Positions 1 to 29,150 of a stretch of DNA of 29,680 bases are shown here, one piece after another. Position 1 is the first letter of the stretch. Every line of letters begins with the position of its first letter. The position numbers and the translations under genes are program-made. Where the stretch lies: positions 1 through 29,680 of IMG/VR virus record IMGVR_UViG_3300009158_000151, one strand, 5' to 3'. The notes beneath the pieces were generated by a model. It did not search any database and was not told where the DNA came from. It saw nothing but the letters and a program-made list of their open reading frames with translations. The DNA is from a virus.

Positions 1-780
1 ACCCATCAATTCTTTTGTTAGTCTAGATTTATCTATAAATTCAGAATGTTTGAATACATTATCAACTCCATATTTTTGCATACAGGTCTTTATAATCTTC
101 TCTCTTATTATTTCTTTATTCATTGAATATTTTAACTTCCAATCATCTGTCTTTGAATATGAATCTACTCCATATTTCTCTATAAATGTATTTCTAATCT
201 TTTCATTTATTTGATATTTTTTATCTTTAATTACTTCCTTAAATTCATCTGTTTTTGAATAAGATTCAACTCCATATTTACTCATTAAAGTTTCCTTAGA
301 CTTTTCTTTGAACTCATCCGAACTCATCCACTTTCTATTCATATCTCTCATTTCTTGTGTTTTGAAAAATGAATCAACACCATATTTCTCAATCATGGTC
401 TTTTTACCCTTTTCAGATCCCTTTTGTATTCCTTTCCATTTAATACTTTCAGACTCTTTAAATACATCAGTCATTGAAAATGATATTACCCCATATCTAT
501 TCAAACATGTCTTTTCTTTCTCTATATTTTTACAACCAAAACAAGAGTAATATCCTTTATTATTTCTATCTCTATTCAAAATATATTTACTATAAGATAT
601 GTAGTTTTCGGACTTACATATCTCACACACAGCGGTCACCTTAGTCTTACTTCCACTTTTCAGATCACACACACTTACCTCTAATATCTTAACATCTTTA
701 TCAAACACATATCCAATATTATTAAAGTAACCGGAGTTTCTTATATTTATGGGTATGAAAACTTTTTCTTCTTTTATCAT
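1..780 (-). CDS. Zinc-ribbon, KYGV-repeat homing-endonuclease-like protein (3' end outside window)
   Basis: The reverse-strand frame is open from ATG at 780 to the window edge (260 codons, no stop), so the C-terminus is missing. Residues C52, C55, C80 and C83 form a zinc ribbon (CEIC ... CFGC). After it come five units of about 35 residues, each opening with (E/S/Q)(K/R)YGV: RYGVISF, KYGVDSF, KYGVESY, KYGVDSY, KYGVDNV, followed by motifs such as SKTDEFKE. This architecture is familiar from phage proteins of the homing-endonuclease type, where the repeats are thought to bind DNA and a nuclease domain lies at the C-terminus; here that domain would be off the window. It lies antisense to, and just upstream of, a broken DNA polymerase gene, as expected for a mobile endonuclease that has split a target gene. 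The nuclease activity itself is inferred, not seen. Confidence 0.6.
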   Translation of the reverse strand, partial: MIKEEKVFIPINIRNSGYFNNIGYVFDKDVKILEVSVCDLKSGSKTKVTAVCEICKSENYISYSKYILNRDRNNKGYYSCFGCKNIEKEKTCLNRYGVISFSMTDVFKESESIKWKGIQKGSEKGKKTMIEKYGVDSFFKTQEMRDMNRKWMSSDEFKEKSKETLMSKYGVESYSKTDEFKEVIKDKKYQINEKIRNTFIEKYGVDSYSKTDDWKLKYSMNKEIIREKIIKTCMQKYGVDNVFKHSEFIDKSRLTKELMG

Positions 781-848: not shown

Positions 849-2325
849 ATGACAAAGCAAGAAAAAATAGAAAAGATTGAGTCATTAAAAAAAAGAGCTA
901 GTGAGCTGAAGAAGGAAGTTGATTATTTCAACGCTCTTCAGCTTGCTGGATAACCCCCTCTGATTTATCAGAGGGGGTAAATGAGCACTAAAACTAGTAC
1001 TTAACGGTTCTTATGGAGCATTTGCTACGTCCTACTTCATATTATATAACAATCACGTAGCAGGTACAATCACAGCACAAGGCCGTGACCTTACCAAAAC
1101 AATGGATAAGGTTAATGAAGACTATTGGTATAATCAATGGCAAAATGACCATGAACTTCATTATAAAATGGGTATTAAAAACATAACACCTATTTCAAAA
1201 GATGAACATGTTTCTATTTATGCTGATACAGATTCTCTATTTGTTTCATTCAAACCAGCAGTAGATCATTGTGACTGGACCAATCTTATATTCAATGATG
1301 ATTATCTTAATTCAGTAGATAAAAAGTTCATCATCCTTTCTAAAGAACTTCCAAAATTCAACAATACTAATTGTGTAGGAACTGCGCATAATATTAAAGA
1401 GTTTAGTGAACTATTAAACGCAGAACATGAGTTAGTTTTAATATGTGGTAACTTTGTTAAAGATAGAGATTTAGTAAAGATGATTAAATCTGGTTCTGTA
1501 AAGAATGAGATAAAATGGAACTGGTCTAATGAAATAGATTTCATACAAGGATTAGACCATTATAGATATGGTGGTTATTTTAAAAAGTGTTTAGAAGATT
1601 ATGCTGGATCTTTTGGTGTAGAGAACAAAGAAGACTTTGAGTTAGAAAGAATATCAGAATCTATTATCAATATTGCTAAAAAGAAATACATTCAACATAT
1701 CTTATTCGAGGATGGTATTCCTTATGATAGATTAAGTTATATCTATCCTAAAGGTGTAGAACTTGTTAGGTCATCTACTCCAGCTTTTGCTAGAGATAAA
1801 ATTGTTGGTATTGTTAAATATTTATTCACACATCCGGATACTTTTAATATTAAAGATTTACTAAAACTAGTTAAAGGACTAAGAAAAGAATTTGAATTGG
1901 CGGATATAGATGATATTTGTATGCAATCTTCTGTTTCTAACTATGAAATAAAAGTTCTTAATGATAAGTCATTGCCTTTAAACTTTATAAGTGGTGCTCA
2001 CTTTGCGGTTAAGTCAGCAGCTCATCATAACTATCTTTTACTAAAGAGTAAAGAATATCAACAGAAATATGAGTTTATAAAATCAGGTAATAAGATTAAA
2101 TATTATTGTTGTAAAGATAAATCTATAACTGATATGTTTGCTTATACTCGTGGTTCTTTTCCGGTTGAGTTCGCTCCGCCTATAGACTATGACGAACAAT
2201 TTTCTAAGTCTATCTTATCCCCTATCAATTCAATTATTGAACCATTAGGAATGCCTGAGATTACTAAAAGGTTGTCGGTGGTAATGGATATTTTCTCAGG
2301 TATGGGTGGAAAAGGAGGTTTCTAA
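849..2325 (+). CDS. Family B DNA polymerase, C-terminal fragment (T4 gp43-like), interrupted by a 40-nt insert
   Basis: Codons from ATG 849 encode 33 residues ending in DYFNALQLA, then GGA TAA. The continuation is in another frame, open from 985: A-LKLVLNGSYG. Joining GCT (945-947) to CTA (988) gives QLALKLVLNGSYG, which matches PolB motif B (Kx3N-x-x-YG; compare QLALKVSANSVYG in eukaryotic pol delta) including the Q-to-K spacing. Motif C follows (YADTDS, 1219-1236), then the thumb motif KGVELVRSSTPAF. The C-terminal VMDIFSGMGGKGGF sits where T4-type polymerases have a clamp-binding tail. The exonuclease domain and motif A are missing and must be encoded elsewhere, presumably beyond the endonuclease-like gene. 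The first ATG in the second frame (1102) lies downstream of motif B and would give an inactive protein. The 3' end overlaps the converging gene by 4 nt. Confidence 0.85.
948..987 (+). other. 40-nt hairpin insert in polymerase motif B: candidate translational bypass element
   Basis: The insert lies between GCT (945-947) and CTA (988). It starts GGA TAA, so a stop follows directly. It holds a perfect 10-bp stem (CCCCCTCTGA at 954-963 with TCAGAGGGGG at 968-977, loop TTTA), then TAAATGA and GCA (985-987). Its length shifts frame by +1, and leaving it out restores QLALK exactly. No U-tract follows the stem, unlike the terminators in this window, and 40 nt is too short for a group I or II intron. 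The layout recalls the T4 gene 60 bypass: take-off codon, stop, hairpin, landing codon. Synonymous Ala codons GCT and GCA flank the gap and could serve as take-off and landing sites. Bypassing is inferred; an assembly error, pseudogene or unusual RNA processing is possible. Confidence 0.6.
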
Positions 2326-14654: not shown

Positions 14655-15752
14655 ATGAAATTTAGATATGATAAAGAAACTGAAGAAATAGTTGTTACGT
14701 CAGCAACTAGAATCGAATACCATCAAGTTGGTCTTTGGTTAACTCGTCATGTCAAGGGATATAGATATATGCCAGCATTTAAAATGGGTGTTTGGAATGG
14801 ACAACAATCATATTTCAAAAATGGTAGAGTAAATATAGGTCTTTGGAAAGAAGCTATGAGGGGATGTAAAGAAATTGATGCTCCTTTTATTTTAGAAAAT
14901 AAAGAAGACTTTCCACTAAACAAAGATGTAACATTAGAAAAGGTTAAAAACTTCTGTAATGAATTCTTTAAGGATCATAAAGTTAAAACTAAAGATGGTC
15001 AATGGGTTCCTTTTACACCCTATGAACATCAAATAGAATCAGCATTTAAAATACTTAAAAATAGATTCTGTATGGCAGAGGTTGCTACATCTGGTGGTAA
15101 GTCACTAATCATATCTATAGTAATGTTTTATACATTAAAGAATATGAATCCAGATGCTAAGTTTCTTATCATAGTTCCATCAATTACTTTAGTTACTCAA
15201 TTCTATGATAATATAGTAGAATATAATTTTGGTATTAATAATCTAGTTGAGATGAGAGAAAAAAATAGTGATACTATAATAAGTGGTAGTCATGTACCAT
15301 GTGATGTTAGAGTAGAAGAAGTTATGTCTGATAGACCAAGAAAGTTTTCAGGTACACAAAATCCTAATGTTTATATTGGTACTTATCAATCATTAGAAAA
15401 ATGGCCTAAAGAATTCTTTCAACAATTTCATACTGTTGTTACTGATGAGTGTTTACATCCTGATAGTCTAGTTCATATGGCTGATGGTAGTTTTAAAAAA
15501 ATATCTGAAATTAAAATAGGTGATTGTGTAAAAACAATAAATGAAGTAACCAAAGAAATAGAAAATAAAATGGTTGAATATGTTTATGAAAATTTATCTA
15601 TTGATAATGATATGTATGAGATTGAAATGGAAGATGGTAGAATTTTAAAAATAACCGGAAATCACAAAGTATATACTAATGATTTTACTTGGAAAAAGGT
15701 TGAAGATTTGACAGAAAATGATGAAATATTAGATTTTAATTTTAATATATAA
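14655..15752 (+). CDS. uvsW: UvsW-type helicase N-terminal part fused to N-intein
   Basis: Residues 1-265 are the first half of a superfamily 2 helicase: a UvsW-like N-terminal domain, YEHQ (Q-like motif, 123-126), Walker A ATSGGKS (144-150), and VVTDE, the start of the DECH box. The frame then enters an intein at C266: CLHPDSLVHMADGSFKKISE (block A) and ILKITGNHKVYTND (block B, with the TxxH pair), ending after 100 intein residues with a stop. The helicase continues in the gene at 16592 with CHQAK, rebuilding DECHQAK; T4 UvsW also has DECH there. UvsW remodels branched DNA and R-loops in recombination-dependent replication. The two halves are useful only after protein trans-splicing. The start lies 7 nt after TATATATAA. 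Confidence 0.9.
   Translation: MKFRYDKETEEIVVTSATRIEYHQVGLWLTRHVKGYRYMPAFKMGVWNGQQSYFKNGRVNIGLWKEAMRGCKEIDAPFILENKEDFPLNKDVTLEKVKNFCNEFFKDHKVKTKDGQWVPFTPYEHQIESAFKILKNRFCMAEVATSGGKSLIISIVMFYTLKNMNPDAKFLIIVPSITLVTQFYDNIVEYNFGINNLVEMREKNSDTIISGSHVPCDVRVEEVMSDRPRKFSGTQNPNVYIGTYQSLEKWPKEFFQQFHTVVTDECLHPDSLVHMADGSFKKISEIKIGDCVKTINEVTKEIENKMVEYVYENLSIDNDMYEIEMEDGRILKITGNHKVYTNDFTWKKVEDLTENDEILDFNFNI
15450..15749 (+). other. N-half of a split intein (100 residues)
   Basis: It begins with the nucleophilic Cys directly after the helicase DE, carries blocks A and B with T-G-N-H, and ends at a natural stop. The length fits known split N-inteins. No endonuclease domain is included. Confidence 0.88.
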
Positions 15753-15768
15753 ATAAAAATGGAGACTC

Positions 15769-16602
15769 ATGATACAAAGTCAAAAAGATAGAATATATGA
15801 TCTTATAAATGAAAATAGATTTTCAATATTTAATAATAAAAATAAAGAGAAGAATTTTTTAAAATTTTTAAATGATAATAATATTATTCTACCAATAGAT
15901 GAATATTCACTGATGAAAGTTATATCATTTTTAAAAAATGTTAATATTAAATGTGGAATAGAAGGTTGTGAAAATAATAGAGTTTTTGAGGGAATAAGAA
16001 ATAATAATAGAACAGAATTTGGATTTAAAAAATTCTGTTCAAGTCAGTGTGAACATAGGGGAAGATCAATTAGACAAAGTGGTAAAAATAATACATGTCA
16101 TAGAATGACAGAAGAAAGCTTTAAGTCAATGCGTATTAAAAACTCAATTATAATGAAGGATAAAATAAAAAATGGAGAATTTACACCAAATATAACAAAT
16201 AGTTGGAATTATGGAACATCCTATCTAATAAAAAATGGTTTGAAAATAAAATACAGATCATCTTGGGAGGCTTTTTTTCACTTATGTAATGAAAATTTAG
16301 AATATGAAAAAGTAAGAATTGAATATGAATATAAAAATGAACTACATTATTATATTGTTGATTTTATTGACACTATTGATAAAAAGTTATATGAAATAAA
16401 ACCAATATCACAAATCAGTAATCCAATTGTTAAAATAAAAGAAGAGTATTGTTTAAAATGGTGTGTTGAAAATGGATATGAATTTATTTTCATAACAGAA
16501 GATTGGTATATTAATAACCTAGGTAAGTCAAAGAATCTTCTAAATGACCAACCAGATGGTGAGAATATTTATAAAAAATTAAAAAAGTTTGATGAAAATT
16601 AA
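15769..16602 (+). CDS. PD-(D/E)xK homing endonuclease inside the fractured uvsW locus
   Basis: The 277-aa product has a zinc-binding region (C62, C67, C90, C94; CGIEGCENN ... FCSSQCEHRG) and a C-terminal nuclease core: YRSSWEAFF (E167), YYIVDFID (D198) and LYEIKP (E209, K211), an E...D...ExK set. It lies between the two halves of a split-intein gene, the position of the endonuclease in 'fractured gene' loci described from phage metagenomes, and would spread the locus by cutting uninterrupted uvsW. A GGAG stretch 4-8 nt before its ATG is one of the few Shine-Dalgarno-like sites in the window. The stop overlaps the start of the downstream half by 11 nt, so translation is coupled. AT content is even higher than in its neighbours, which suggests separate origin. 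Confidence 0.82.
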   Translation: MIQSQKDRIYDLINENRFSIFNNKNKEKNFLKFLNDNNIILPIDEYSLMKVISFLKNVNIKCGIEGCENNRVFEGIRNNNRTEFGFKKFCSSQCEHRGRSIRQSGKNNTCHRMTEESFKSMRIKNSIIMKDKIKNGEFTPNITNSWNYGTSYLIKNGLKIKYRSSWEAFFHLCNENLEYEKVRIEYEYKNELHYYIVDFIDTIDKKLYEIKPISQISNPIVKIKEEYCLKWCVENGYEFIFITEDWYINNLGKSKNLLNDQPDGENIYKKLKKFDEN

Positions 16603-16696
16603 AAAAATTAAAAAAATAGAACATTCTGATAATGTTTATAATTTGAGAATAGAAGATAATCACAATTATTTTGTAAATAATCTTTGTGTTAGTAAT
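16592..16696 (+). other. C-half of a split intein (35 residues)
   Basis: It starts at its own ATG and ends SN followed by Cys +1 of the C-extein. Block F carries DNHNYFVNN. Its size matches known C-inteins of split inteins. Confidence 0.86.
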
Positions 16697-17512
16697 TGTC
16701 ATCAAGCCAAAGCAAAAAGTTATTTAAAAATATTAGGACAAACATTTGGACATGCTTATTCAAGATTTGGAGTTTCAGGAACAACACCATCAGAGGAAAC
16801 TTGTGAAATACTAACCATACAATCAGTGTTAGGTCCAAAGATTACAGAGGTTTCCGCAAATGAATTAAAAGAAAAGGGTATCATTACACCAATGGATATT
16901 AAAGTTGTGATAATGAATCATAATGACTCTGAATTTGCTGAGAGAATTAATATAATAAAGAAAAGTGGAAATGGTAAAGACGCATTTGATTTAGAAAAAG
17001 ATTACATTCACATATCAGAAAGAAGATTAGATTTTATTAAAAAGATAGTAGATAAATGTGACTCAAATACTTTATTACTTTTTCATACAATTGAATATGG
17101 TCAAAGTATATTTAATAAGTTACAGAAGGAGTGTGTAGATAAAGAGTTTTATTATATTGATGGTGAGATATCTGGTAAGAAAAGAGAGATTATAAAAAAA
17201 GATATGGAGAATACAGATGGTAAAACCAAAGTATTATGTGCGAGTTTTGGAACATTATCAACAGGTGTCTCGATAAATGCCATCTTTAATGTTATCTTTG
17301 CTGATTCATTTAAGTCAGAACAAATTATTATACAATCAATAGGTAGAGCACTTCGTTTACATGATGATAAAAAGAAAGCAAATATATTTGACTTAGTTGA
17401 TGTTTTCTCATCCGGTGAGATGTCTAATATATTATTCAGACATTTTAAAGAAAGAGAAAAATTCTACATAAAAAGAGGATACCCTTATAAGATTACTAAG
17501 ATTAATCTTTAG
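16592..17512 (+). CDS. uvsW: C-intein fused to UvsW-type helicase C-terminal part
   Basis: From ATG 16592 the first 35 residues are a C-intein: MKIKKIKKIEHSDNVYNL, then RIEDNHNYFVNNLCVSN (blocks F and G) ending in Asn just before Cys (TGT 16697). The remaining 271 residues complete the helicase: CHQAKAKSYLKILGQTFGHA, FGVSGTTPSE (motif III), LLLFHT, CASFGTLSTGVSINA, and QSIGRALRLHDD (motif VI). With the 265 N-terminal residues this makes a 536-residue helicase, a normal size for UvsW. The frame is also open from a TTG at 16589, but ATG is more likely. The residue before the terminal Asn is Ser rather than the usual His. The gene ends tail to tail with a 4-nt overlap against the baseplate block. 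Confidence 0.9.
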   Translation: MKIKKIKKIEHSDNVYNLRIEDNHNYFVNNLCVSNCHQAKAKSYLKILGQTFGHAYSRFGVSGTTPSEETCEILTIQSVLGPKITEVSANELKEKGIITPMDIKVVIMNHNDSEFAERINIIKKSGNGKDAFDLEKDYIHISERRLDFIKKIVDKCDSNTLLLFHTIEYGQSIFNKLQKECVDKEFYYIDGEISGKKREIIKKDMENTDGKTKVLCASFGTLSTGVSINAIFNVIFADSFKSEQIIIQSIGRALRLHDDKKKANIFDLVDVFSSGEMSNILFRHFKEREKFYIKRGYPYKITKINL

Positions 17513-19554
17513 AAATCTGCGTTTATAGAAATAGACTTCTGGCCTTCTCCCTTTCTAAGTGCTGGTAGAATAAACTTGAAGAAGTTATTTTTATCAATAG
17601 TTGCTTTTTTCAACGAAGCCAGTTGGTTCTTAAATAGTGTTTGATGTTCAGAAGTTAATTTTGATATAGATAACTTATTATACCAAGTCTGTTGTTTTGC
17701 CATTGTTTTTAATCCAAATAACTCATATAATCTATTAACCGCACCATTAGTATCATCTCCAAAGGTTGCCTTAAAGTCATAAAAGAGAGCTTTTTGATTT
17801 GGTGTATAGTTATTATCACCTAATTTATATACATTCTCAATTAGTTTCACTAAATTTTGATATTCATTAAATGATTTTTGATCTGCTGGAGAAATAGGAG
17901 TATTATTTTGAGCTGCTGCACCAGCACCAGCACCGGCACCAGCACCACCTGCTCCACCACTTTGAGAATCTTCTACATCCTTAGATGTTATTAAAGTATA
18001 AGTGAATTTATTACCATACTTAGCCTTATGTTTATCTAATAACCCAAATATTTGGTCTAAGTGAGCTGGGTCTGGTATGACCTGACATCCTTCAGACCAG
18101 TTATAAACACCATAAGTATTTTTACCTTGAGCTCTATTAAATGCTTTGTGTATTAACATACCAGCTGCTCCAGAACCTTCTTTACTAAAAGTTATTTTTT
18201 CATCACCATTTGCAGCATCTCTATAAAACTTTTGTACACCAGGTCTTAAACATTTATCACCATGATAATCACCAATTTGCCAAGAATCAACATACTGAGC
18301 AGGCTTCAATATTCCCAATCCACCTCTTTGTTTAATATGTGGTATATCTTTGTGTAATATAGTGTATTTTCCACCAACCTTAGAGTCTGAATTACTTCCA
18401 TATTTACCCGGTAGAGTAGAGATAGGAAACCAAACTGCTTTTAACGCACCTTCATCATTTTTATAAACAAGATAAATTCTATCTTTGAATTGATTTGAAT
18501 ATCCCTGACCAGGATATTGATATCTAACTCCGACTATATTCATTTCCCAAGGCTTATCATAGACAACATATCCCTTTTTTCTAAGTGCATTTAGTATACC
18601 AGCAGCATCAGCATTTACTTCTTTTGATGCTGGTGGTATATTATCAGCAGTTATAGGTGGTCCACCAGGAGTACCTGGTTCAGTACTAGGTTGATTAACA
18701 TTACCATTGGTATCACCAGCAGCTGTAGTTAGGGTACCGTCAATTGGAGTGGCTGCCTTAGGAGTAAAGTTAATAGGTTCCCTCATAACTAATTCATTCT
18801 TCTTAACTGTTGATTTCCATGAATCACCAACTTGACCATCAGTCACTCTATTATCTTGTGCAGGTATAATAGAGGAATCAATATACCCATTATCATTCAA
18901 ATTAACATTCTTAGAAAGAAATTTAGGATCTTTAAGAGCTTTATACTTTGCCAGAACATCTATAAATGATGAGTTTGCAATTACTGGAGCAAATAAATTA
19001 CCTAAATAGGGACCGTTTAATAGATTATCCACAAACTCATCAAACCAATTTAAGAAGTTAGTGCCTAATATAGCTTGTTGATTTGCGTTACCAGAACCAA
19101 TATTAATAGTACCCATATTATCTTTTAGATTCATATCAATACCACCATCTCTTAAATTTATTTGAGTTATCTTATAATCTAAAACAACACCTTCTTTATC
19201 ATTAACAAAAAATTGAGTTTTGTGATCAAAGATAATAGACTTCATTGAAGTATAATCTTTACCATCTAACTTTTTTAACTTTTGTTCTAGGTTGATATTA
19301 TAGTGTTCAGAGTATAAAAATTCAGGTTTGTATATATTACCTTGATCAAAAACAATAGTAACTATTTTACCTTTTTCAGGAACATTAAATCCGTTACCAT
19401 TTAAGTCTTTCCAAGGATTGGCCCAAGGTATATCTTCTATAGGTATTTCATCAAATATATCCAATACTCTAATTCTAACCCTTCCGAGTTTTTTAGGATC
19501 ATCATTATCTTCGACTACACCAATATAAGTTTTATTAGCTTCAATTTGAATCAT
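17509..19554 (-). CDS. gp5-like baseplate hub/spike protein with L,D-transpeptidase-like (YkuD) domain
   Basis: Residues 1-90 form a gp5/VgrG-type OB-fold (YIGVVEDNDDPKKLGRVRIR, PEKGKIVTIVFDQGN). A beta-rich stretch (about 100-155, INLRDGGIDMNLKDNMGTI) looks like the start of a needle. A linker precedes a domain at about 315-525 with LIHKAF (H469) and NWSEGCQVI (S487 to C490), the His...S-x-G-C arrangement of YkuD-type L,D-transpeptidases. Then comes a Gly/Ala linker (535-548) and a helical tail. T4 gp5 has a lysozyme domain instead. The Cys domain would act on peptidoglycan during penetration, either cutting or rearranging cross-links; the reaction is not settled by sequence. It is the last gene of the baseplate block. 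Confidence 0.78.
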   Translation of the reverse strand: MIQIEANKTYIGVVEDNDDPKKLGRVRIRVLDIFDEIPIEDIPWANPWKDLNGNGFNVPEKGKIVTIVFDQGNIYKPEFLYSEHYNINLEQKLKKLDGKDYTSMKSIIFDHKTQFFVNDKEGVVLDYKITQINLRDGGIDMNLKDNMGTINIGSGNANQQAILGTNFLNWFDEFVDNLLNGPYLGNLFAPVIANSSFIDVLAKYKALKDPKFLSKNVNLNDNGYIDSSIIPAQDNRVTDGQVGDSWKSTVKKNELVMREPINFTPKAATPIDGTLTTAAGDTNGNVNQPSTEPGTPGGPPITADNIPPASKEVNADAAGILNALRKKGYVVYDKPWEMNIVGVRYQYPGQGYSNQFKDRIYLVYKNDEGALKAVWFPISTLPGKYGSNSDSKVGGKYTILHKDIPHIKQRGGLGILKPAQYVDSWQIGDYHGDKCLRPGVQKFYRDAANGDEKITFSKEGSGAAGMLIHKAFNRAQGKNTYGVYNWSEGCQVIPDPAHLDQIFGLLDKHKAKYGNKFTYTLITSKDVEDSQSGGAGGAGAGAGAGAAAQNNTPISPADQKSFNEYQNLVKLIENVYKLGDNNYTPNQKALFYDFKATFGDDTNGAVNRLYELFGLKTMAKQQTWYNKLSISKLTSEHQTLFKNQLASLKKATIDKNNFFKFILPALRKGEGQKSISINADF

Positions 19555-19593: not shown

Positions 19594-21966
19594 TTATAAA
19601 GGTCTTTTGCCTTTATTAAATAAATTTGAAATTGATTCACCCACAAAGTTTTCAAAAGAATCTCTAACCAATTTAGATGATAAATATAACTCACCATTAA
19701 AGTCACTTTCATATATATTCTTCGGTGGTAACATAGAACTATACCCGGCTTCATTAGCCATAGTATTTAGTGTTTTAGTTAAAAGAGCTGTTCTTTTTGC
19801 GATAAACTGATTAGCGGCTGCTATACCAGTATTAACAATTCTTTTTGCAAATCTAGCACCAGGACTATCAGAATTTAACCAAGACTCTTTTGGTGCTCCT
19901 GATTTAGTACCATCTAGTTCTGATTTAGACATTTTATCATTTTCTTGTTTAAATGAAGTTGGTTTTGAGTTAGCTTTCGCTTCGAAAATTTTAGTACGCT
20001 CCTCTAGGCTAACACCTTCATTAGTTTCTTTGAATTTGTTTGGATATTCAGGTCCTTCAAACCCCAATATTCTTTCACCATTTTCACTTCTTGTTGCTAA
20101 TCTCTTACCTTCTTTATATTTATCTACTTCAAATTCTTTCCTATAATCTGCGATATCTTTGAATATTGGCGGAAATTCAGGTTCTTCAAACCCCAATATT
20201 CTTTCACCATTTTTATTTCTGATGGTTGCTAATCTCTTACCTTCTTTATATTTATCTACTTCTTTTTTTATCATAGCCTTTCCAACAACTTCGAATGCAT
20301 TGGTGAAAGTTGATCCTATAGATACTTTCTGAATCTCTAGCGTTTCTTCGTCTTTGATAAAGACTGTCCTCACCGTGTTTGGTTCTACAAATCCTGTCAC
20401 TCTCAATGGACCACTACTTCCAAAAATCTTTTCTGAATTAATTGTTGATAATCTCTTACCTTCTTTATAATTATCTACTTCATCCCTATTTAATCCATAT
20501 TTTAAATAAGTAACAGATGCTGATTTGGCATCAAATATTGGATTTCTTGATAAATTAGGAAGAGTTTGGCCAGCTAGCTTAACAGAGTTTATATTACTTT
20601 TTCGTTCTGGTGGACCAGCTGGTTCATCATCTTCAGCACCAGAAGCAGAAGTCTTGGTTTTAGGAACACCATCAGAATCAGTACCCATTTCATCTGATGT
20701 TTCTATAGGCTCTGGTGGCGGTGGTGTTAACTCAATCTGTCTACCATAAGAATAATTAACAACGTCTATAATTACTGGAATTTCTGAGGCAATTGTAGTT
20801 TCTGATATGGTTGAACTTGTGGAACTAATTGGAACTGTTAGATTTAAAAATTTATCAAAAGGTGTTACAGAACGTGGTTTATAAGAACCATTATTTAAAA
20901 CTCCATAAGAGTTAGTATATGGATTAAAAACATCAACTCTCATAGTTGAATGTTTATAGGTAAATCCAATACTATATCCTTCAAATGCTGCTGGTTGAGT
21001 TGCTAAATCAATAACATCACCATGTGGCATTTTATCAAAAAATAATTGACAATCATATAAAGTATAAACATATCTATTAACATTATCTCTTAGTATGTTC
21101 AAACCACCACTTTTAAAGAAGATTTTATCATCAAGTCCATCATTATTAAGATCCGCCTCTACTATATTAGTTCCGCCCTCTAGAACATTTTTTAATTTTA
21201 CAAAATTTCTAACTTCTGAAACTATTATATCACAATCAAATCTTAATAGATTTTCAGGAATCATAGTTTTCCCAGACATTCTAGACCAATAAAGTGATTT
21301 GTAAAGAGCAGCCATTCTACCTATTCTTAAAGTAACATCTTCTGTAAAATCTAATTTAATCATATCTTTACCATAATCAACAAATGGGTTTGCTGTTTCC
21401 ATAGTATTTGCTTCTACCAAACCATCCAATCCTGTTACTTTAGTTAAGTAATAATAGAATCTAGAATTAAGAGGATTATCAGGATCAGCCGATTGACCAA
21501 GTGGTTGTGTATTATAACTAGACCTAAAAAATTGAAAAAATGTTTTCTTAAAATCTTGCCAAATCTCTATTCTAGACATCATTTCTTCACTAGGAACTAC
21601 ATTACTTTCAAAGAATTTACTAACACTCTCATCTATAACATCTGAGAAAAGCGGAGACTCCTGAGATCTGATTATCAAATCAAAACCAAACATCACAGGA
21701 TCTTCTTTGGCAGCTCTGTTACCAGTATCTGGTCCAAATGGAGAATAGTCTACAGTATTTGTAAATTGACTCAATGGTATTCCAGTACCACCGTCTATAC
21801 TAGATGGACTAACTTCTGAAAGACCATGTCTGAAAAGATCATGACCACCATCATTAAATAAGGCATATAAATTCCTAGTAGGCAAAGGTCTAGGTCCATC
21901 TTGAGCAAATGGTGATGTTGTTAGATTTTTGTTAAATCGGTCATAGGTTGTTAGAAATCTTGCCAT
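19594..21966 (-). CDS. Baseplate/tail structural protein with tube-like domain and internal repeats
   Basis: The 790-aa product begins MARFLTTYDRFNKNLTTSPF. Residues 100-350 look like a virion protein; the segment YDCQLFFDKMPHGDVIDLAT followed by EGYSIGFTYKHSTMRVDVFN resembles the beta strands of T4 tail-tube-type proteins (gp19/gp48/gp54), so a tube-initiator or tube-adjacent role is plausible. A Ser/Pro/acidic linker (about 430-470) leads to a region with three VD(K/N)YKEGKRL(A/S)T repeats, two of them followed by GERILGFE(E/G)PE(F/Y)P. The C-terminal 100 residues are helical and basic. It lies between the hub-lysin gene and the gp5-like gene, which places it in the hub region. Function remains inferred from position and fold impression. 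Confidence 0.6.
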   Translation of the reverse strand: MARFLTTYDRFNKNLTTSPFAQDGPRPLPTRNLYALFNDGGHDLFRHGLSEVSPSSIDGGTGIPLSQFTNTVDYSPFGPDTGNRAAKEDPVMFGFDLIIRSQESPLFSDVIDESVSKFFESNVVPSEEMMSRIEIWQDFKKTFFQFFRSSYNTQPLGQSADPDNPLNSRFYYYLTKVTGLDGLVEANTMETANPFVDYGKDMIKLDFTEDVTLRIGRMAALYKSLYWSRMSGKTMIPENLLRFDCDIIVSEVRNFVKLKNVLEGGTNIVEADLNNDGLDDKIFFKSGGLNILRDNVNRYVYTLYDCQLFFDKMPHGDVIDLATQPAAFEGYSIGFTYKHSTMRVDVFNPYTNSYGVLNNGSYKPRSVTPFDKFLNLTVPISSTSSTISETTIASEIPVIIDVVNYSYGRQIELTPPPPEPIETSDEMGTDSDGVPKTKTSASGAEDDEPAGPPERKSNINSVKLAGQTLPNLSRNPIFDAKSASVTYLKYGLNRDEVDNYKEGKRLSTINSEKIFGSSGPLRVTGFVEPNTVRTVFIKDEETLEIQKVSIGSTFTNAFEVVGKAMIKKEVDKYKEGKRLATIRNKNGERILGFEEPEFPPIFKDIADYRKEFEVDKYKEGKRLATRSENGERILGFEGPEYPNKFKETNEGVSLEERTKIFEAKANSKPTSFKQENDKMSKSELDGTKSGAPKESWLNSDSPGARFAKRIVNTGIAAANQFIAKRTALLTKTLNTMANEAGYSSMLPPKNIYESDFNGELYLSSKLVRDSFENFVGESISNLFNKGKRPL
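20050..20485 (-). repeat. Internal repeats in the 790-aa protein
   Basis: Two long near-identical DNA blocks (about 20050-20130 and 20179-20263) and a shorter third copy (about 20442-20480) encode the YKEGKRL units. The first two also share the GERILGFE segment. The high DNA identity of the first two suggests a recent duplication. Confidence 0.8.
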
Positions 21967-21986: not shown

Positions 21987-24900
21987 TTAAGCTATCTTTA
22001 TATTATCTAAACCTAAATCAGCAAAGTAGAGATTTTTACCACCATTACTTGGTAACTTACCATAAGGGCCTCTTTTAGCTAAATCTGGTAAATAATCAAA
22101 ATGCCATTCTTCTGTTGCTACTTCTCTTACAAATCCAAACTTCCAAGAATTCATAACCAACCACTTATATCTAGCTTCTGTAAGTGATTTTTTACCCCTA
22201 GATCCGGTATTTAAGTCTAATGCTATACCATTACCATGATTTGATCTACCTGGTTTTGCAGCCAAGTTAAATCCAGGCTTCTTAGCAATCCAACCATTAT
22301 ATAAATATTCCTGTGTAGTAACATTAAATGTTTTACCACTTTTTGTCTTACCGGTGACTTCTGGTCCATAAGCTGGTCTAAATCCACTTGATATAGATAA
22401 CTCAATACTTTCTTTTTTAGCGGCGGCTTTCATATCTAAATAAGCGTTAGCCACAAAATCGGTAGTAACCTTTCCATCAACCAACACTAAGTTGAAAATT
22501 CTTCCATCATTTGATTTGAGTTTATTCTTTGTAACATCATCTAAAACTAAATAGTCTAAGTTATACTTACCTGGTATAGGAGGTGTTGTATCATTCTTAA
22601 CAACAACTGGATCTTTTGCAGGACTTGGTGGTGGTTGATTAGCAGGTGTTCCGGATGTGCCGGCTTTTGTAGTATTTGGATTATAAGAATCAGCAGCCAC
22701 AGGAGCATCTGTATTTGTTAAATCACTTGGATTAGTTGTCTTCTCAACTGTGTTATTTTTAGGAGGCTCGGTTTCATTAGCAGAAGTAGTCTCCATTTGT
22801 TCTTCTTCAAATTCAACATTAGAAACTTCTAATTCTCTCTTAATCAAAGAAATTTCCTGATTATAAGATCCTCCGCTATAAACAAATTTTATTTCGGTTA
22901 TAAACCAATCACCTGATATTCTATCATTTTTAATATTAGCAGAAGGCGTTTTTCCTTTATTGGTAATTAATAATACAACCTTTTGAAATCTATATAAGTT
23001 ATAATTTGGATTTGGTAATGTTAATTTAATACCTATCTTTTGTAAGTCATCTATATTTTGAGAATTATGAACATATGAATAATTATAATTAATATGTGCA
23101 TTATCAGGATCTAATTTACCAATATAAGTACTATTGACATTTTCCTTATAGAAAGTTTCATCTTGAGGAGATCCTTTCATAATAATTGATGTATTACCTT
23201 CTGATGTTATAGAATCTATATCAAATATCAAATATTCCTTTTTAAAAGAATCATAATATTTTGAAATATTTAAATAACCCTTTTCTAAAGAAACAGATGT
23301 TGAATTATTTAGAATTTTATATTCACTAACATATGAATCAGACTCTTGAGCTGATCTATCATTACTTAATGATATTCTTTTAATTTTTTTATCATCAGCA
23401 GTAACATCTTTACCAAATCCAGATGAATCAACTCCCTTATCTTCTAAGACATCTCTTGATAATTCCTTTTCAATATCTACATAGTTAAAGTTATAAAAAA
23501 AGTCAACATACCCATATGAAAATCCCTCATCTGAAATATATGAGTAAGATAAAATTTCATCCATGAAATCATAAACTTTCTTACCAGTATTTATCCAAGT
23601 CATTTGATCTTTTGAATCGGATATATTTGAGTTAAATCCTAGACCAACTTCCTTACAAATATCTTGAAGTGCAAAAAAACTTGTCTTTTTACTATATGAC
23701 TTGAACTTACGTAAATGTAATCCATTAACATTTAAAACCCCTTTGATTGTATATACTTCTCCGTTTACAGAAAAATTAGCTATTTTAAATTCTAATAAAA
23801 TATGTCTAATATTTTTTGTTCTAGATGATAAAAATATTTTTATTTTAGTATCATCTAGTGGAAAACCTTTATCCTTCATTAAATTCATAGAATCTTTAAA
23901 TGTTAAGGTCAGTGTTGGTAAAAGACCGTCATGATAAAGAGCAAAATATTCTATATCTTTATCATCAATTTGATAAGAATTATACCAAACAAAAGGTCTT
24001 GTGCCAATATCAGATGACCATTCTTTTAAGAATTCTTTATCCTCTCCTTTGTGTTTTATTTTAATAGGTTCAACTTTAACTGTCGGAGGAAAAATGTTAC
24101 TTAAACCAGGAGTTACCTCATCAACCTTTTGCGGATTATCTTCATTTTTTTCATCATTATTACCTTTAGAACTTTCTTGAGCCACCGGATCATTTGAAGG
24201 TGTTGTTGTATTAGAAGATGAAGCAGTGGCTGTTTGTACACCATCAGTTGGTGGTGGTGTAATAGGAGCAGCTGGTATATTTGGATCCGCTGGTAAACTA
24301 CCTCCTGTTATTAATTTGTAAAAAAGAGGAGCTCTATTTCTAGCTTTTGTGTATCCAAATAAAACTTTATCATTTGGAAAAACTATATCACCATCACTAC
24401 TATAATTTTTTACATTTATACTACCAACGAAAGAACCTTCAAGATAATGAAGACCAACCAATTTACCACCTTCTTTATGACCAGGTCCAGCATTCAGTTG
24501 ATATAAAAGAGTAACCATAGCTCCTATATCTTTACAATTGTTAACCGTATCAATAACATTTGCTCCCTTCTTTATACCATAGGCTGTAACTAATCCACCA
24601 TTACTTTCTATTCCAGTGGAAAAATATAGAACAAGTGCTTTGGCAGCAACATCCAACTTATCTACAAGTTCTGGATGTCCTTCTAAATCTATACCTAATT
24701 TCTTACCAAACTTTGAATAATTACCTCTATAGGTTAATCCATTAAATCCTCTACCTCTAAATATCCAACCATCAGTTGATGCTGGTTCACCATCTCCGTA
24801 TCCAGGAGAATTTTGACCCTTAATACCAGGAAATACCGCTCCGTAATAATTTTTCCCAATTATAAGTTCTCCATAAACAATGCTAAAAAACTTTTTATCA

Positions 24901-25877
24901 TCAGACTTAATATTATCTATCTGTTGATCTGTATATGCTTTAAATCTAGCTCCAAATACTTTTCTAATACTTTCCGCACTATTATTTCTATAAGGAACCT
25001 CTCCTCTAGGATTAAAATCAGATTCTTTAGATACTATACCACATAAAGCAGCCTGAAAAATAGGATTAGTAAAACCTTGATCCTTACAAGCCTTAACTAC
25101 AAGAGAAATAGTATTTTTCTTGTTAGAATCTATGTTATTAAAATATTTTTGACTAGCTGATTTTTTACCAGATGCTGGTGACGGTGACGCTGCTGGTGTC
25201 GCTTGTTTAGCTGCAGGAGCCGCTTGTTGTGTAGGAGCAGCGGCAGCATTAGTTGGGGCATTAGTTGATAAGTTAGATTCTATTAAACTCTTATATTTAT
25301 TTAAAAATAAAATAGGCATCTGATTGTGGTCATATGAACTAGAGTTAGTATCAGTAACATTAGTACCAACCGCAGTTACTAAAGCAGGAAATCCATTTCT
25401 AATACCAGCATTTGCAGGTCCTTGCCAGTTTTTTGGATTATACACCATGAAAACATTTGTTCCATTGCTCTTAACCTTTGATGTTGTCCCAGCACCACCA
25501 GATGGATCCATCAACATTAAATTCTTCAGACCAGAAATACCAGTTAAACTTTTTTGAATAGATGTGCTTCCGTTACCACTACCAGAATATATACCAACAC
25601 TTACATTTAAAGTCTGTAAACCAAATGCAGTCATTTCAGATTCATATTGATTCTTTACTTTACTCCAATCAGTAGTATGTTGATTTGGTATAGAAATTAC
25701 GTATTTATCAAACCAAGTAGGAGCACCCTTTAATATCAAAGGAGGCATATATTCCTTACCTATCTTACCACCTACTGGTATTCCAGGATAAAATACAATT
25801 ACACTTACTTTACTCCCGCTCTTTATGCCCGGAATATATACAGTTGAGTCATTTAATTCTTTTTTAGTATAACCCAT
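21987..25877 (-). CDS. Giant baseplate hub protein: hydrolase-like, GH19 and M15 peptidase domains around a gp27-like core
   Basis: The 1296 residues show several domains. About 1-205: alpha/beta-hydrolase-like, with VGIYSGSGNGS as possible nucleophile turn, MDPSGGAG and YDHNQ. About 206-240: Ala/Pro linker. About 241-525: GH19 chitinase/lysozyme-like, with SKESDF (E285) and FRGRGFNGLTYRGNYSKFG. About 530-600: Ser/Thr/Asn linker. About 600-1060: gp27/late-control-D-type hub core (IDDKDIEYFALYHDGLLPTL, LHLRKFKSYSKKTSFFALQD, WINTGKKVYDFMDEILSYSY). About 1103-1296: M15 D-Ala-D-Ala or L-Ala-D-Glu-type peptidase, with SGFRPAYGPE, SNHGNGIALDLN (H1214, D1221) and EEWHFDY (E1257, H1259). It would cut both glycan and peptide bonds at the tail tip during entry. 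T4 gp27 has no enzymatic domains. Confidence 0.82.
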   Translation of the reverse strand: MGYTKKELNDSTVYIPGIKSGSKVSVIVFYPGIPVGGKIGKEYMPPLILKGAPTWFDKYVISIPNQHTTDWSKVKNQYESEMTAFGLQTLNVSVGIYSGSGNGSTSIQKSLTGISGLKNLMLMDPSGGAGTTSKVKSNGTNVFMVYNPKNWQGPANAGIRNGFPALVTAVGTNVTDTNSSSYDHNQMPILFLNKYKSLIESNLSTNAPTNAAAAPTQQAAPAAKQATPAASPSPASGKKSASQKYFNNIDSNKKNTISLVVKACKDQGFTNPIFQAALCGIVSKESDFNPRGEVPYRNNSAESIRKVFGARFKAYTDQQIDNIKSDDKKFFSIVYGELIIGKNYYGAVFPGIKGQNSPGYGDGEPASTDGWIFRGRGFNGLTYRGNYSKFGKKLGIDLEGHPELVDKLDVAAKALVLYFSTGIESNGGLVTAYGIKKGANVIDTVNNCKDIGAMVTLLYQLNAGPGHKEGGKLVGLHYLEGSFVGSINVKNYSSDGDIVFPNDKVLFGYTKARNRAPLFYKLITGGSLPADPNIPAAPITPPPTDGVQTATASSSNTTTPSNDPVAQESSKGNNDEKNEDNPQKVDEVTPGLSNIFPPTVKVEPIKIKHKGEDKEFLKEWSSDIGTRPFVWYNSYQIDDKDIEYFALYHDGLLPTLTLTFKDSMNLMKDKGFPLDDTKIKIFLSSRTKNIRHILLEFKIANFSVNGEVYTIKGVLNVNGLHLRKFKSYSKKTSFFALQDICKEVGLGFNSNISDSKDQMTWINTGKKVYDFMDEILSYSYISDEGFSYGYVDFFYNFNYVDIEKELSRDVLEDKGVDSSGFGKDVTADDKKIKRISLSNDRSAQESDSYVSEYKILNNSTSVSLEKGYLNISKYYDSFKKEYLIFDIDSITSEGNTSIIMKGSPQDETFYKENVNSTYIGKLDPDNAHINYNYSYVHNSQNIDDLQKIGIKLTLPNPNYNLYRFQKVVLLITNKGKTPSANIKNDRISGDWFITEIKFVYSGGSYNQEISLIKRELEVSNVEFEEEQMETTSANETEPPKNNTVEKTTNPSDLTNTDAPVAADSYNPNTTKAGTSGTPANQPPPSPAKDPVVVKNDTTPPIPGKYNLDYLVLDDVTKNKLKSNDGRIFNLVLVDGKVTTDFVANAYLDMKAAAKKESIELSISSGFRPAYGPEVTGKTKSGKTFNVTTQEYLYNGWIAKKPGFNLAAKPGRSNHGNGIALDLNTGSRGKKSLTEARYKWLVMNSWKFGFVREVATEEWHFDYLPDLAKRGPYGKLPSNGGKNLYFADLGLDNIKIA

Positions 25878-25928: not shown

Positions 25929-26426
25929 TTATGATGGAAGTAAACCACCACCTATAATAATGTCTGGTCCAGAAATATTAACAGCATTGGTTGGTGTTGG
26001 TAATATTGTTGGTGGTAATGAATAATTCTGTTCAATATATTTATTTCTACTATCATCTTTTCTAGTAGCTTTATTTCTATTAAGTAATTTCTGAACTGTT
26101 TGTTTCTGAGCTTCTTCTTCTACTCTAAATAAAATAATATCATTTATACTAGGATATCTAATAAAATCACCATTTTTAATATTTAAAGGGTTATCAATTT
26201 TATTAATATTTAATAAAATATCAATGAATTCAGTTGTTCCATATATTTTATAACAAATAATATCTATTCTCATATCCTCATCTGGTTGAACAACCCAATA
26301 GTTAAGAGAAACATCTGTTCTACTAAGAAAAGTACTTTGTGTCAAATCGAAAAAATATTGTTGACCTAATTCCTTATCAAGTTTTTGTTTAACCCTTCTT
26401 ACATTATCTAAATCATAAATTTTCAT
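25929..26426 (-). CDS. gp53-like baseplate wedge protein with LysM-like fold
   Basis: The 165-aa product matches the gp53/LysM-like baseplate pattern: YWVVQPDEDMRIDIICYKIY, then GTTEFIDILLNINKIDNPLN and IKNGDFIRYPS. In T4, gp53 joins wedges round the hub during baseplate assembly. The last 40 residues are Pro/Asn/Gly-rich (TILPTPTNAVNISGPDIIIG) and probably disordered. It lies between two larger baseplate genes on the same strand with gaps of about 50 nt. The upstream gap lacks the usual TATATA box, so it is probably transcribed from the gene before it. Confidence 0.72.
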   Translation of the reverse strand: MKIYDLDNVRRVKQKLDKELGQQYFFDLTQSTFLSRTDVSLNYWVVQPDEDMRIDIICYKIYGTTEFIDILLNINKIDNPLNIKNGDFIRYPSINDIILFRVEEEAQKQTVQKLLNRNKATRKDDSRNKYIEQNYSLPPTILPTPTNAVNISGPDIIIGGGLLPS

Positions 26427-28760: not shown

Positions 28761-29150
28761 TTAATAGTCTCTTATTATTTGGCTGTTAGAAAATTTGGAT
28801 AAGTTACCAAATACATCATCTATGTATTCTGGATTTTTTCTAAATTCATTATAAAATATCAAAACATTGAAGTTATTTTGACCGAGTATTTTTTTAAGAT
28901 TAAGAAGTTTCTCTATTGAGAATTCATTATCAAAATCGGGTATGTAATAAATATCTTTCTTTTTATCTATGGCTTGTTGTATCTTTTGAAATATTAAAAT
29001 CTTAAGATATGTTCTATCATTGGAAAAGTCTACCTGTTCCTCGTCTATAATCTTTTTAATATCAATTATATACTTATTCTTTACTCTATTAATTTTGATA
29101 TACTTATCAAACTTCTTTCTTGTTTTGCAATAGACGCAGAAAAACTCCAT
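28761..29150 (-). CDS. Hypothetical protein (129 aa)
   Basis: The product starts MEFFCVYCKTRKKFDKYIKI, with a single CxxC pair (C5, C8), too few for a zinc ribbon unless it dimerises. The second half, YIPDFDNEFSIEKLLNLKKI followed by NFNVLIFYNEFRKNPEYIDD, has the look of a Rossmann-like strand-helix-strand and may bind a nucleotide or a protein partner, but no P-loop is present. I do not recognise the family. It lies just before the baseplate block on the same strand and has an AT box (TATATATAT) about 35-45 nt upstream. Confidence 0.55.
   Translation of the reverse strand: MEFFCVYCKTRKKFDKYIKINRVKNKYIIDIKKIIDEEQVDFSNDRTYLKILIFQKIQQAIDKKKDIYYIPDFDNEFSIEKLLNLKKILGQNNFNVLIFYNEFRKNPEYIDDVFGNLSKFSNSQIIRDY

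Follow-up and report, generated by a model that had tools for sequence, protein, structure and literature searches.

Results

A predicted hub gene within a baseplate gene cluster

The window (the whole stretch of DNA analysed, 29,680 bases from an IMG/VR record) is probably a fragment. On its (-) strand, at 21987-25877, it carries an open reading frame of 1296 codons which runs from ATG to stop unbroken and stays open through every linker. In a preliminary description, this chain had been read as four domains in a single polypeptide; the reading frame is indeed intact, and all four assignments turned out to be right. The parts of the gene are listed below, residue r corresponding to bases 25877-3r+1 to 25877-3(r-1).

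21987..25877 (-), hub gene, 1296 aa: alpha/beta-hydrolase, GH19, gp27-like core and M15 in a single chain
25263..25877 (-), residues 1-205: predicted alpha/beta-hydrolase fold (AlphaFold/Foldseek), candidate triad Ser100, Asp124, His184
25158..25262 (-), residues 206-240: Ala/Pro/Thr-rich linker (sequence), in which the start of the nearest relative, L001, falls
24402..25157 (-), residues 241-492: GH19-type lysin domain (sequence matches), with Glu285, Glu293 and Thr382
24126..24401 (-), residues 493-584: remainder of the GH19 region, then a linker (sequence, L001 alignment)
22809..24125 (-), residues 585-1023: gp27/VgrG-type hub core, as predicted by profile, AlphaFold (pTM 0.88) and Foldseek
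22575..22808 (-), residues 1024-1101: linker, in which homology with L001 ends
22053..22574 (-), residues 1102-1275: M15/VanY-type zinc peptidase domain (Pfam E=2.4e-12, alignment), with H1214, D1221, E1256 and H1259

The hub gene is surrounded by the following genes, in the order in which they are met along the (-) strand.

28761..29150 (-), 129-aa protein that opens the cluster: no family match, 84-100% identity with three huge-phage relatives
26486..28693 (-), 735-aa baseplate-cluster protein: conserved synteny, no family match
25929..26426 (-), gp25-like baseplate wedge protein, 165 aa: PHROG wedge/sheath matches, always adjoins the core
19594..21966 (-), 790-aa "mid" protein in the hub-spike interval: conserved synteny
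17509..19554 (-), gp5-like spike with an N-terminal OB domain (Phage_base_V): Pfam E=3.2e-08, PHROG baseplate hub/tail lysozyme E=1e-14
17965..18594 (-), C-terminal spike domain, perhaps resembling L,D-transpeptidases: the alignment shows a His and a WSEGC motif

This order (129-aa protein, 735-aa protein, gp25, core, "mid", gp5-like spike) recurs, with some inversions among loci, in the putative Mahaphages described below and in dozens of IMG/VR loci. The succession of gp25, hub, "mid" and gp5-like spike fits a contractile baseplate, and together with the fold of the core it would place the hub at the tail tip. The 129-aa protein is conserved far more strongly than its neighbours. No T4-type lysozyme was recognised in the spike. 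For its C-terminal domain, Pfam and PDB profiles gave no significant match in support of an L,D-transpeptidase, and the Cys of the WSEGC motif is replaced by Ser or Ala in many relatives; this assignment therefore stays tentative. The same domain is also found in crAss-like and Bacteroides phages.

Elsewhere in the window, a UvsW-like helicase is split (14655-17512, (+)) in a manner that looks like a split-intein fractured gene. Its parts, which are found in the same order in contig L002, are:

14655-15752 (+), N half of the UvsW-like helicase, with a Hint/intein N part at its end
15769-16602 (+), free-standing endonuclease inside the split helicase
16589-17512 (+), intein C part and Helicase_C

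A homing endonuclease also adjoins a partial DNA polymerase gene (1-780 (-) and 1102-2325 (+)). In Tenacibaculum phage PTm1, an intein-containing split DNA polymerase and a VSR endonuclease are annotated close to the hub genes.

The core is predicted to adopt the gp27 fold

Sequence libraries were almost silent on the middle of the chain. In Pfam, no family was matched by the central part or by residues 1-205, and the sole PHROG match of the centre was a family of unknown function. The Pfam Phage_GPD profile (PF05954) gave no match in the window, nor did the core profile match any PDB sequence, and structure was used for this reason; rows from the annotated phage collection were left out of the input for structure prediction. 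An AlphaFold2 model was built from 57 aligned cores (mean pLDDT 87.2, pTM 0.88). Searched against the PDB with Foldseek, it matched hubs of contractile injection systems with E down to 8.9e-18. The phage P1 hub (TM by target 0.74), T4 gp27 (1k28_D, E=1.5e-13, TM by target 0.60), Mu gp44, VgrG and diffocin (8v3w_H) were all among the matches, and the hub-fold matches as a whole spanned E values of 1e-11 to 1e-18. Because the model matches solved hubs, we conclude that the core has the predicted fold of a gp27/VgrG-type hub. The preliminary description had called it gp27/gpD-type: the gp27 half of that label is borne out by the model, and the gpD half holds at the level of the fold only, since the gpD sequence model found nothing. 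Its limits, first placed at residues 600-1060, lie nearer 585-1023. A hub identity is thus proposed for a core whose library matches had been to families of unknown function only. In BFVD, the best match of the model was A0A8D9CEH1, annotated in an uncultured marine phage as a "putative hydrolase" of 776 aa, shorter than the window chain and 50% identical in the core (E=7.5e-54).

Three putative enzymes flank the core

The GH19 region (residues 255-421) matched the PHROG endolysin family phrog_181 with E=2.7e-17, and its best PDB sequence matches were GH19-type lysins of phages (E=4e-6); the Pfam GH19 profile gave a weak hit (E=0.05), below its own cut-off. Glu285, singled out in the preliminary description, is invariant among 13 aligned GH19 domains and Thr382 nearly so; judged by its position, Glu293 is likely the second GH19 glutamate. 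Family and conserved residues suggest that this domain would cut glycan.

The M15 assignment was clearer, with a Pfam VanY/M15 match at residues 1142-1264 (E=2.4e-12, 47.2 bits for a cut-off of 25). R1167, H1214, D1221, E1256, W1258 and H1259 are all present, each conserved at 90% or more in the alignment, so that the full zinc-binding set expected from the outset is in place (ligands H1214, D1221 and H1259, catalytic E1256). The best PDB sequence matches came from LdcB/YodJ-like enzymes and D-alanyl-D-alanine carboxypeptidases. Carboxypeptidase activity, by which stem peptides are trimmed and cross-links left uncut, is frequent among M15 enzymes of the VanY type; M15 also has endopeptidase members. 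From its sequence, the domain would act on stem peptides, and may do so as a carboxypeptidase, not an endopeptidase. The preliminary description had named a core unlike gp27 and a loss of catalytic residues from the lysin domains as the points that could overturn it; both were checked, and neither was observed.

Residues 1-205, proposed at first to be hydrolase-like, were modelled with AlphaFold2 from six sequences (pLDDT 78.7, pTM 0.81), the weak part of the model being residues 163-182, beside the candidate His. Nearly all Foldseek matches with E<=1e-3 were alpha/beta-hydrolases, including a carboxylesterase, a dienelactone hydrolase, feruloyl esterases, a lipase and a PETase, and the model thus backs an alpha/beta-hydrolase fold ahead of the two lysins. 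Ser100, Asp124 and His184, all present in the window chain, form a plausible candidate catalytic triad; across the six homologues the Ser is kept in 6, the Asp in 5 and the His in 4, one of the two sequences devoid of the His having also lost the Asp. Ester hydrolysis is accordingly a putative function, held with less confidence than the fold. Searched by itself, the domain gave no relatives in the annotated phage collection, in IMG/VR (single-sequence patterns) or in GTDB contigs; an alignment with the relative in L045 then recovered five loci. Most of the relatives of the domain sit in these same clusters of baseplate genes.

Enzymes are exchanged around a conserved core

A tblastn search of the annotated phage collection with the core (residues 592-1015, approximately) found LR756502 (642 kb), LR745206 (634 kb), LR756504 (636 kb) and LR756501 (735 kb), as well as a 462 kb genome, Flavobacterium phage MaF61 and Tenacibaculum phage PTm1. 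The spike gene matched the same huge genomes. Mahaphages are a clade of huge phages defined by the terminase tree. Al-Shayeb et al. 2020 placed their largest genomes, of 634, 636, 642 and 735 kb, in this clade, with predicted Bacteroidetes hosts (PMC7162821), so the closest deposited hub and spike genes come from putative Mahaphage genomes. Core and gene order are there as in the window, and the differences are in what the core carries: two of the four hubs are bare, LR745206 has an Ig-like domain at its N terminus and a short C-terminal domain, and LR756502 has a C-terminal GH19. In several of the phages found with the core, it is a stand-alone protein of some 450 aa; MaF61 ORF96 is such a bare core.

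A profile search of IMG/VR for the core gave 241 encoding stretches, from which 80 loci were kept. The non-redundant set comprised 57 cores, 27 of them bare and 30 extended at the N terminus, the C terminus or both. Recognised extension domains were GH19 (at either end or at both), M15, another LAS-type peptidase, Amidase_2, Phage_lysozyme2 and GDSL esterase; many extended hubs bear domains outside any recognised catalytic family, such as an Ig-like one adjoining the core. Two-enzyme hubs were found in L001 (GH19 and LAS peptidase), L024 (GH19 and amidase) and L044 (GH19 and GDSL). By the profiles used, no chain among the 57 other than that of the window combined the core with three different enzyme folds.

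The nearest relative, L001, is identical to the window chain at 400 of 439 core positions (91%) and at 168 of 260 in GH19. Its first residue falls close to residue 238 of the window chain, and it hence lacks the alpha/beta-hydrolase; the homology then runs throughout GH19, linker and core before breaking off inside the linker 1024-1101, and a different LAS-type peptidase occupies the C terminus. In contig L002 the core-M15 junction is present, at 96% identity. A separate 553-aa gene placed directly after gp25 in L090 (5974-7635) encodes an alpha/beta-hydrolase and an M15 domain, the very pair that stands at the two ends of the window hub. We also noted in L052 (7053-10997) a 1314-aa hub with two GDSL-type esterase regions at its C terminus and a spike-type domain at its N terminus. 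The GDSL domains on the L044 and L052 hubs are unrelated to the alpha/beta-hydrolase, which suggests that ester hydrolysis recurs among the functions of hubs. On a quick tree of the core, with state labels set in part by profile thresholds, we counted 2 changes between extended and bare, at least 10 at the N terminus and at least 12 at the C terminus. The enzymes turn over while the core is conserved, and neighbouring genes carry them too.

Discussion

Taken as a whole, these results are best explained, and we say so with good confidence, by a gp27-type hub of a contractile-tailed, Mahaphage-related phage that bears exchangeable envelope-cutting enzymes. That GH19 and M15 are common in endolysins, and that the PHROG match is to an endolysin family, could suggest a lysis endolysin or a tail fibre. 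We rejected both as very improbable: the core has a hub fold, in dozens of loci the gene lies on the stretch from gp25 to the spike, and bare cores devoid of lysin occupy the same place. An assembly chimera of unrelated genes is, if anything, a shade more improbable. The fusion of alpha/beta-hydrolase to GH19 was seen in the window contig only, and no second contig with this junction was found; against a chimera stand the frame open across every linker, the match of L001 through GH19, linker and core, the core-M15 junction of L002, and the baseplate clusters in which the alpha/beta-hydrolase relatives mostly lie. On these grounds it was rejected as well.

Other doubts bear on what the flanking domains do on a genuine hub. 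Some of them, chiefly the alpha/beta-hydrolase, might be non-catalytic binders of surface polysaccharide or peptidoglycan, as the incomplete triads of two homologues and the many hub domains outside recognised catalytic families (Ig-like ones, for example) would allow. We hold this to be unlikely, given that the window chain keeps Ser100, Asp124 and His184 and that the catalytic residues of GH19 and M15 are complete and conserved. A more serious contender, to which we still give less credit than to its opposite, is that M15 is a D,D- or L,D-carboxypeptidase which trims stems, for instance blocking resealing by transpeptidases, the hub then cutting glycan only and leaving cross-links unsevered. 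The carboxypeptidases among the top PDB matches and the VanY family assignment point that way; M15 also includes endopeptidases, and specificity lies beyond what can be told from sequence alone. The proposal of the preliminary description that the baseplate cuts sugar and peptide bonds together therefore stays a tentative reading of the two lysin families.

Hubs of this kind have precedents. In T4 the hub is devoid of enzymes, the lysozyme being part of gp5. The window resembles T4 in having a gp27 fold (1k28_D) beside a gp5-like OB spike, and differs in that its enzymes sit on the hub, with no lysozyme recognised in its spike. The closest parallel is diffocin CD1368, in which a gp27-like hub, a lytic transglycosylase and an NlpC/P60 endopeptidase form one chain, trimeric and positioned for peptidoglycan degradation (PMC10996793). 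The two share a hub, a glycan cutter and a peptide cutter joined by flexible links, and the window core model matches the diffocin structure. Diffocin CD1368 is nevertheless shorter (581 aa), has both enzymes at the C terminus and no esterase fold (PMC10996793), and uses a lytic transglycosylase and NlpC/P60 where the window has GH19 and M15; moreover, diffocin is a bacteriocin against a Gram-positive, whereas the window encodes a phage hub. Evolved VgrGs of type VI secretion, such as VgrG2b, likewise have an effector enzyme covalently fused to a hub/spike protein (PMC6899460); they differ in that hub and spike are one protein, and in that the effectors, usually one and C-terminal, hit competitors. 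For hub lysins of huge phages, our literature search found only these diffocin and type VI parallels. Since both precede the present case, the principle was already known, and the combination can be called unusual in part only: a glycan and a peptide cutter on one hub have been published, and two-enzyme hubs recur in the relatives. Within the searches made, what appears to be new is the third, esterase-like fold, together with the presence of enzymes on either flank of the core and their rapid exchange.

The hub could work as follows. From the fold, three copies of the core would form a ring between the tail tube and the gp5-like spike, each subunit holding on flexible linkers the alpha/beta-hydrolase and GH19 on its N-terminal side and M15 on its C-terminal side. 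A trimer with three enzymes per subunit would gather up to nine catalytic domains around the tube tip. Upon contraction, the spike would pierce the outer membrane and the enzymes would be delivered to the envelope, where GH19 would cut the glycan strands of peptidoglycan and M15 would cut or trim stem peptides. The least certain step is that of the alpha/beta-hydrolase, which may remove ester groups such as the O-acetyl groups of peptidoglycan or of surface polysaccharide, or the acyl esters of lipids. The core would evolve slowly while flanking enzymes are gained, lost and replaced at the linkers, a turnover that presumably tracks host envelope chemistry.

More broadly, the hub may be a general cartridge holder in these huge phages, with ester-, glycan- and peptide-cutting enzymes carried on either side of the core, in neighbouring genes or on the spike, swapped faster than the core diverges, and with a tip content matched to the envelope chemistry of the host. 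We regard this generalisation as evenly balanced, and the matching of enzymes to envelope within it as a hypothesis. The hub nevertheless gives a testable account of how uncultured relatives of the largest phages, with predicted Bacteroidetes hosts, would breach the envelope. Its relatives make up a natural series of enzyme combinations on one scaffold, with which envelope chemistry could be linked to host range, and the enzyme domains of these hubs are candidate lysins for Bacteroidota.
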